DNA from: Salvelinus alpinus
Taxonomy: Eukaryota > Chordata > Actinopteri > Salmoniformes > Salmonidae
Direction of reading: 5' to 3'
Assembly: GCF_045679555.1 (NCBI RefSeq)
Contig: NC_092115.1
Span: 39,426,228 to 39,490,227, forward strand
DNA length: 64,000 bases
Numbering within the stretch: the stretch's first letter is position 1; each line of letters begins with the position of its first letter. The notes under the pieces are model-generated. The model saw nothing but the letters and a program-made list of their open reading frames with translations. It made no database searches and was not told the origin of the DNA. This document shows, one piece after another, positions 12,701 through 16,996 of this stretch. A program made the position numbers and the translations under genes.

Positions 12701-15700
12701 TTTGTTGTCCTTAAGCCATTTTGACACAACTTTGGAAGAATGCTTGTGGTCACTGTCCATTTGGAAGACCCATTTGCAACCACGCTTGAACTTCCTGACT
12801 GATGTCTTGAGATGTTGCTTCAATATATACAGATCATTTTCCATCCTCATGATGCCATCTATTTTGTGAAGTGCACCAGTCCCTCCTGCAGCAAAGCACC
12901 TCCACAACATGATGCTGCCACCCCTGTGCTTCACGGTTGGGATGGTGTTCTTCGGCTTGCAAGCGTCCCCCTTTTTCCTCCAAACATAACGATGGTTATT
13001 ATGGCCAAACAGTTCTATTTTTGTTTCATCATTCAGAGGACATTTCTCCAAAAAGTATGATCTTTGTCCCCATTTTTTTATGGCGGTTTTGGAGCAGTGG
13101 CTTCTTCCTTGCGGGGCGGCCTTTCAGGTTATGTCGATATAGGACTCGTTTTACTGTGGATATAGATACTTTTGTACCTGTTTCCTCCAGCATCTTCACA
13201 AGCTCCTTTGCTGTTGTTCTGGGATTGATTTGCCCTTTTCGCACCAAAGTACGTTCATCTCTAGGAGACAGAACGTGTCTCCTTCCTGAGCGGTATGACG
13301 GTTGTGTGGTCCCATGGTGTTTATACTTGCGTACCATTGTTTGTACAGATGAAGGTGGTACCTTCAGGCATTTGGAAATTGCTCCCAAGGATGAACCAGA
13401 CTTGTGGAGGTCTACAATTGTTTTTCTGAGGTCTTGGCTGATTTCTTTTGATTTTCCCATGATGTCAAGCAGAGAGGCACAGAATTTGAAGGTAGGCCTT
13501 GAAATGCATCCACAGGTACACCTCCAATTGACTCAGATGATGTCAATTATCCTAACAGAAGCTTCTAAAGCCATGACATAATTTTCTGGAATTTTCCAAG
13601 CTATTTAAAGGTACAGTCAACTTAGTGTATGTAAACTTCTGACCCACTGGAATTGTGATACAGTGATTTAGAAGTGAAATAATCTGTCTGCAAACAATTG
13701 TTGGAAAAATGACTTGTGTCATGCACAAAGTAGATGTCCTAACCGACTTGCCAATACTATAGTTTGTTAACAAGACATTTGTGGAGTGGTTGAAAAACAA
13801 GTTTTAATGACTCCAACCTAAGTGTATGTAAACTTCCGACTTCAACTGTATATCCATCCTGCCCTGCCTTTCTAAAATCTTCGAAAGCCAAGTTAACAAA
13901 CAGATCACCGACCATTTCGAATCCCTCCGAACCTTCTCCACTATGCAATCTGGTTTCCGAGCTGGTCATGGGTGCACCTCATCCACGCTCAAGGTCCTAA
14001 ACGATATCATAACCGCCATCGATAAAAGACAGTACTGTGCAGCCGTCTTCATCGACCTGGCCAAGGCTTTCGACTCTATCAATCACTGCATTCTAATCGG
14101 CAGAGTCAATAGCCTTGGTTTCTCAAATGACTGCCTCGCCTGGTTCACAAACTACTTCTCAGATAGAGTTCAGTGTGTCAAATCGGAGGGCCTGTTGTCT
14201 GGACCTTTGGCAGTCTCTATGGGGATGCCACAGGGTTCAGTTCTCGGGCCGACTCTTTTCTCTGTATATATCAATGATGTCGCTCTTGCTGCTGGTGATT
14301 ATCTGATCCACATCTCCGCAGACAACACCATTCTGTATACATCTCGCCCTTCTTTGGACACTGTGTTAACAAACCTCCAAAAGAGCTTCAATGCCATACA
14401 ACACTCCTTCCGTGGCCTCCAACTGCTAAATACTAGTAAAACTAAATGCATGCTCTTCAACTGATTGCTGCCTGCACCCGCACACCCGACTAGCATCACT
14501 ACTCTGGACGGTTCTGACTTAGAATAACTACAAATACCTAGGTGTCTGGTTAGACTGTAAACTCTCCTTCCAGACTCACATTAAGCATTTCCAATCCAAA
14601 ATTGAATCTAGAATTGGCTTCCTATTTCACAACAAAGCATCCTTCACTCATGCTGCCAAACATACCCTCGTAAAACGGACTATCCTATCCAACCTTGAAT
14701 TCGGCGATGTCATTTACAAAATAGCCTCTAACACTCTACTCAGCAAACTGGATGTAGTCTATCACAGTGCCATCCGTTATGTCTGTGGCCTATTTATTGC
14801 CTTACCTCCCTAATCCTCTACATTTGCACACACTGTACATAGCTTTTTCTACTGTGTAATTGACTGTACGTTTGTTTATGTGTAACTCTGTGTTGTTGTT
14901 TTTGTCGCACTGCTTTGCTTTATCTTGGCCAGGTCGCAGTTGTAAATGAGAACTTGTTCTCAACTGGCCTACCTGGTTAAATAAAGGTGAAATAAAATAC
15001 AAAATATTAGTCTGGCCGTCATATTGGTAAGGTCAGAGCTGGTATTCGTTTGACCCGTGTGTGTGTGTGTGTGTGTGTGTGTGTGTGTGTGTGTGTGTGT
15101 GTGTGTGTGTGTGTGTGTGTGTGTGTGTGTGTGTGTGTGTGTGTGTGTGTGTGTGTGTGTGTGTGTGTGTGTGTGTGCGCAGTGCGGGTGTAGGGCGAAC
15201 TGGAGTCTTCATCACTCTGAGCATTGTTCTGGAGAGGATGCGTTACGAGGGAGCTGTGGACATCTTCCAAACAGTCAAGATGCTGAGGACACAACGCCCT
15301 GCCATGGTGCAGACGGAGGTAGGCTTCACAGACACAGCACCCTGCCATGGTGCAGACGGAGGTAGGCTTCACAGACACAGCGCCCTGCCATGGTGCAGAC
15401 GGAGGTAGGCTTCACAGACACAGCGCCCTGCCATGGTGCAGACGGAGGTAGGCTTCACAGACACAACGCCCTGCCATGGTGCAGAAGGAGGTAGGCTTCA
15501 CAGACACAACGCCCTGCCATGGTGCAGAAGGAGGTAGGCTTCACAGACACAACGCCCTGCCATGGTGCAGAAGGAGGTAGGCTTCACAGACACAACGCCC
15601 TGCCATGGTGCAGAAGGAGGTAGGCTTCACAGACACAGCGCCCTGCCATGGTGCAGACGGAGGTAGGCTTCACAGACACAGCGCCCTGCCATGGTGCAGA

Positions 15701-16996: not shown

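Follow-up and report, generated by a model that had tools for sequence, protein, structure and literature searches.

In Salvelinus alpinus, the junction between the penultimate coding exon of ptprs and the intron that follows it lies inside a minisatellite, in which the end of the exon, its splice donor and the first bases of the intron are present in 34 tandem copies of 43 bp (15288-16743, + strand). The window, i.e. the whole stretch of DNA that was analysed, comprises 64,000 nt (assembly GCF_045679555.1, NC_092115.1, 39,426,228-39,490,227, forward strand), and positions are counted from its first base. On our best reading the array is a minisatellite of the ordinary kind, extraordinary only in its location, neutral, recently grown and seeded on a splice junction. 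As a whole, we consider it probable that the array was born at a microhomology and grew to 34 copies, that splicing mainly uses the donor of copy 1 and that the products of the other, decoy donors mostly decay.

The gene model consists of 12 exons on the + strand up to position 16996, the first being cut by hand at 717, so that its start is arbitrary. Joined together, they encode 577 aa with no internal stop. Compared with solved structures, this product gives 1267, 1243 and 1234 bits with PTPRS (2fh7, 4bpc and 3sr9 respectively) and 1193 and 1188 bits with PTPRF/LAR, while PTPRD is named among the matches only as a D2 chain (643 bits). The gene thus appears closest to PTPRS, a LAR-type receptor tyrosine phosphatase with tandem D1 and D2 domains, by a comparison that does not in itself exclude PTPRD. 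For the 577-aa query the end of exon a was set at 1175. This exon has two in-frame donors 12 nt apart, AGG/gttcaa at 1176 (score -6.56) and CAG/gtacag at 1188 (0.40), and the better-scoring one would add four codons absent from solved PTPRS. The D1 active-site strand (7066-7217) reads GPVIAHC, and GPIVVHC in solved PTPRS.

The exon that carries the array is the penultimate coding exon, which encodes the D2 P-loop (15183-15318, + strand, 136 nt); it is preceded by AG and followed by GT, keeps the frame and matches PTPRS. Its 45 full codons match PF00102 (E 5.8e-14), the first GT after it stands at 15319 and the last ten residues of the coding copy are those of solved PTPRS. The last coding exon, obtained by exon joining, holds 22 codons and TAA (16928-16996, + strand), and the start at 16928 given by the first-pass annotation agrees with the joined model. 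Because the coding copy matches PTPRS and the 577 aa contain no internal stop, the array exon is constrained and a normal mRNA is presumably made. When the 68-aa exon pair was compared with bacterial and archaeal contigs, 3 out of 117 pattern stretches encoded a relative, all of them loci of chlamydial MAGs with 44% identity; in viral contigs, 6 pattern stretches contained no relative and a 38-base unit pattern had no exact match.

In order to delimit the array, TRF and cutting by hand were used. TRF reports a repeat at 15288-16749 with a period of 43, 34.1 copies, 95% matches, 0% indels and a score of 2567, while the top score among 20 dinucleotide shuffles of the whole window was 68. Cutting at the repeated GACACA yields 34 units, of which 30 measure 43 bp, two 40 bp and one each 42 and 44 bp, followed by a 6-bp tail that reaches 16749. 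Each unit is made of the end of the penultimate coding exon, the donor GAG/gtaggc and then 12-13 nt of intron; read in frame, it gives the exon end and then gtaggcttcaca. The last ten codons of the exon are hence one member of the minisatellite, and with 43 bp and 34 copies the array has the tandem structure of a minisatellite or VNTR (units of ~10-100 bp). These results confirm the earlier claim that a ptprs coding exon/intron junction had been amplified in tandem about 34 times, place the proposed limits (15289-16748) within one base at either end, and bear out the composition proposed for the unit, namely the end of a D2 exon, a donor and the start of an intron in 43 bp, which is not a multiple of 3.

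The copies of the donor are close to uniform. Indeed, GGTAG is found in 34/34 units, and the donor 9-mer is GAG/gtaggc in 27/34, GGG/gtaggc in 3/34, GAG/gtaggg in 3/34 and GAG/gtagac in 1/34. With scores taken from a frequency table, the donor of copy 1 reaches 3.48 and 29 of the 33 decoys score the same or higher, which bears out the description of the intron as opening with decoys that equal or resemble the real donor. In copy 1, as in the donor copies identical to it, pairing with U1 amounts to -9.3 kcal/mol. Between positions 1000 and 63000, 98 GT sites reach the score of copy 1, of which 30 (copy 1 counted) are inside the array, the density outside it being 1.12 per kb. The ten other donors of the gene score from 0.40 to 6.15 (exon a being taken at 1188) and 7 of them exceed copy 1. 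An RNA structure that would expose donor 1 was considered and set aside, since the openness predicted for copy 1 by local folding ranks 26/34.

In the computed products, the normal C-terminus is obtained from the donor of copy 1 only (gtaggc, 15319-15324, + strand) and from 0/33 decoys. Donor 2 leads to a stop just past the junction, with 15 different residues in place of the last 22, donor 3 to a frameshift with a long foreign tail, and donor 4 to a stop 42 nt upstream of the junction. For the 30/33 decoys that remain (donors 5-34), the stop falls 85-1326 nt upstream of the last junction. The usual rule for decay is a stop more than 50-55 nt upstream of the last junction, and the stops from donors 5-34 lie beyond it. 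On read-through of the array, reading of the frame locates an in-frame TAG at 15406-15408 (+ strand), in the third copy, as anticipated by the first-pass annotation, which had expected a stop within about three units. Because this TAG is met first, decoys that add a length that is a multiple of three are of no help.

Regarding the origin of the array, comparison of its ends shows that GACACA is common to both, the left copy being coding (15288-15293, + strand) and the right copy adjoining unique intron (16744-16749, + strand), while the flanking bases differ on either side. The simplest history would be a duplication between two GACACA that lay 43 bp apart in the ancestor. According to this scheme, the ancestral ptprs would have carried a single 43-bp stretch over the exon end, the donor and the first intron bases, between the two repeats, and the microhomology would have allowed slippage or unequal exchange to produce the first duplication. 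However, the second GACACA may be just a partial last unit, which would have the same appearance. Further rounds would have brought the array to 34 copies, a late one duplicating a six-unit block of 255 bp. The 34 units belong to 14 types in the order ABCCDDDDCEFGH-IJKDLM-IJKDLM-IJKDL-ANNN, with a higher-order repeat of 255 bp and six units at 15847-16571 (+ strand; units 14-19, 20-25 and 26-30, the third block being without its sixth unit). The first two blocks are identical over 255 bp and the third over 215 bp, so that 17 units (14-30) are exact; the coding copy recurs unchanged as unit 31. The order of unit types shows a late block amplification, exact over 255 bp and then over 215 bp. The array is young, given that no more than 14 unit types make up its 34 copies and that its higher-order block is exact, and the exactness of the 255-bp block suggests recent growth.

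Two other accounts of growth and maintenance were rejected. A DNA hairpin as driver of the expansion finds no support in folding, as a stretch of two units has a z of +1.58 and is equalled or surpassed by 193/200 shuffles. Selection to retain the decoy donors might be read from GGTAG in every unit, but with only 14 young unit types this conservation is no evidence of constraint.

The window has five arrays with units of ~25-43 bp and at least 10 copies (TRF), hence minisatellites of this size are not rare here. The chance that an array straddles a ptprs junction is ~1.5% per array (22 junctions x 43 / 64000) and 7% for five. Genome-wide, cases of a minisatellite falling on a junction by chance are to be expected unless selected against. 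A second minisatellite of ptprs (2116-3086; 38 bp, 25.6 copies, 97% matches, TRF) begins 17 nt past the donor of another exon (GT at 2099), with no exon sequence in its unit by eye. AC/TG tracts at 3868-3959, 7226-7357 and 8687-8738 begin 46, 8 and 7 nt past the ptprs donors at 3822, 7218 and 8680 respectively. A general clustering of tandem repeats at ptprs junctions was not retained: 7/13 lie within 50 nt against 3.46 expected, with a P of 0.029 that is the smallest of nine uncorrected tests. Among the other features of the window are a DDE_3 (Tc1-like) transposase frame in a ptprs intron (5991-6482), a reverse-transcriptase frame at 13832-14461 (PF00078), within the intron that precedes the array exon, a Tc1/Tc3-like transposase frame on the - strand (43855-44616; PF01498, PF13358) and, also on the - strand, frames at 55270-56463 that we take to resemble ABHD17, one piece of which (56071-56463) has no Pfam match.

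The array exon is unusual on both sides, with a donor array downstream and a (GT)60 acceptor upstream. The GT tract (15057-15177, + strand; TRF period 2, 60.5 copies, 100% matches) stands directly before the acceptor, where the pyrimidine tract would be. Of the 11 acceptors of the gene, none falls below this one in pyrimidine fraction (0.50, a value shared with exon g); its longest run of pyrimidines is a single base, against 3 or more in the others, and no other has so long a stretch free of AG (144 nt, the next being 63). A candidate distant branch site, TTGAC (15050-15054, + strand), may place the branch A at 15053, 130 nt before the exon; it is the sole yUnAy match in the 144-nt AG-free stretch and lies before (GT)60, a weak test given that 7/11 acceptors have no match. 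According to PMC12171016, TDP-43 is bound by UG-rich sequence ahead of CFTR exon 9 in the missplicing of that exon. Both cases have a conserved exon with a UG-rich tract on the upstream side of its acceptor, but in ptprs 60 GT units stand directly before the acceptor with no T tract; moreover, the likeness concerns the acceptor of the array exon and not the array.

Which donor is used was considered from the published behaviour of U1. According to PMC6002489 (citing Sharma 2011 and Hodson 2012), U1 protects 23 exonic and 12 intronic nt, and two alternative donors are bound alike by U1 in the early complex. Since such a footprint of 23+12 nt fits a spacing of 43 nt, many U1 could bind together along the array. 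The same paper reports that among comparable donor pairs the intron-proximal one is favoured, for a reason called unknown (citing Roca 2013). For its part, PMC8724738 states that a donor at the end of an exon raises U2AF binding at the upstream acceptor.

On the preferred explanation, the donor of copy 1 would be mainly used. Upstream of the array the exon offers 105 unique bases, and its acceptor lies across 136 nt of exon, by which U1 would be favoured at the first donor through exon definition; a donor inside the array is preceded by only ~30 nt that resemble exon, and lacks an acceptor with a pyrimidine tract. Indeed, three classes of candidate acceptor within the array show weak context in the 13 sites sampled. 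The products of decoys would mostly be cleared by nonsense-mediated decay. In-frame microexons of 30 nt running from CACAG to a donor were discarded, as the gap of 13 nt between them is too short for an intron and the four CACAG sampled have a pyrimidine fraction of 0.30-0.35. We infer the choice of the first donor from what makes a working protein, and with it exon definition and decay. Three observations go against this explanation. The intron-proximal preference described in PMC6002489 would favour copy 34; copy 1 is not singled out by sequence or by folding (29/33 decoys score at least as high and its openness ranks 26/34); and the acceptor needed for exon definition looks poor, by the pyrimidine fraction and longest run given above. 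However, because the coding sequence is intact, the intron-proximal rule does not seem to operate here, as most transcripts would otherwise be lost, and exon definition at copy 1 is favoured for the same reason.

The strongest of the alternatives, which we hold to be rather unlikely, is a leaky choice in which U1 molecules sit side by side, late or scattered copies are often used and much of the ptprs mRNA decays; that the array would then act as a copy-number dependent dimmer of ptprs is just as tentative. The identity of 27/34 donors, the strength of 29/33 decoys in the frequency table and the ordinary openness of copy 1 in local folding all speak for such leakiness, as do the fit of the U1 footprint to the spacing and the favoured position of intron-proximal donors in PMC6002489. 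On the other hand, all 12 exons examined retain an intact coding sequence, the donors of the array are without exon context of their own, and the authors of PMC6002489 themselves caution that U1 protection may reach beyond 35 nt.

A further alternative, far less probable, is that the array corrects itself. Here the AG/GT at the unit ends would serve as acceptor and donor: a splice between copies i and j would take out an integral number of units and recreate the donor as it was, a second join could repair one made wrongly to the last exon, and all paths would lead to normal ptprs mRNA. If this were true, splicing would erase the effects of the array, so that its presence would be tolerated and its growth unrestrained. 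AGGT occurs 31 times in the array, with AG/GT at the unit end in 31/34 copies, and there is a human precedent in UBC. According to PMC10809524, dual-specific sites act as both donor and acceptor, UBC contains a tandem array of such sites and, for 77 human introns, the length is a multiple of the repeat unit around them. The likeness to UBC lies in tandem units each with an AG/GT site inside one gene, but in UBC each unit is a coding monomer and intron lengths are multiples of it. In ptprs, the copies are intronic and the unit is 43 bp; the intron (15319-16927) measures 1609 nt, which is not a multiple of 43 (remainder 18), and its acceptor at 16928 lies outside the array. Moreover, four GGAG/GT sampled as acceptors have a pyrimidine fraction of 0.45-0.50 and another AG 3-6 nt before. 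Hence, the ptprs array was not filed as a member of the UBC-like dual-specific arrays. Equally improbable is an assembly artefact behind part of the copy number, or of the 255-bp block: assemblers can collapse or multiply repeats as exact as this block (255 and 215 bp), but the 14 unit types form an ordered series, some occurring only outside the block (units 1-4, 9-13 and 31-34), the flanks are unique on both sides, and a wrong number of blocks would still leave a donor array of some length.

Two other described systems resemble the array. TERT VNTR6-1 is an intronic minisatellite with comparable unit length and copy number (38 bp; 24-27 or 40.5-66.5 copies), described in PMC11830802 as a splicing switch acting via G-quadruplexes; no donor in its unit is mentioned in the abstract, whereas in ptprs every copy has the exon's own donor. 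In potato RdRp, an intron was gained through a tandem duplication that ran across the boundary of an exon and an intron and so duplicated splice signals (PMC4974935); there one duplication gave rise to a new intron, whereas here 34 donor copies lie in an old one. A literature search over titles and the starts of abstracts found, among the matches listed, no minisatellite unit spanning an exon end and its donor, and the nearest described case among them is the potato duplication. What is new here is the GACACA microhomology, the 255-bp higher-order repeat, the (GT)60 acceptor and the presence of AG/GT at 31/34 sites.

The locus offers 34 near-identical, regularly spaced donors after one constrained exon, with natural variants in the proportions 27/3/3/1, so that long cDNA could show directly how position affects the choice of donor. 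Furthermore, as the last ten codons of the exon are inside the minisatellite, unequal exchange or conversion could reach the protein.
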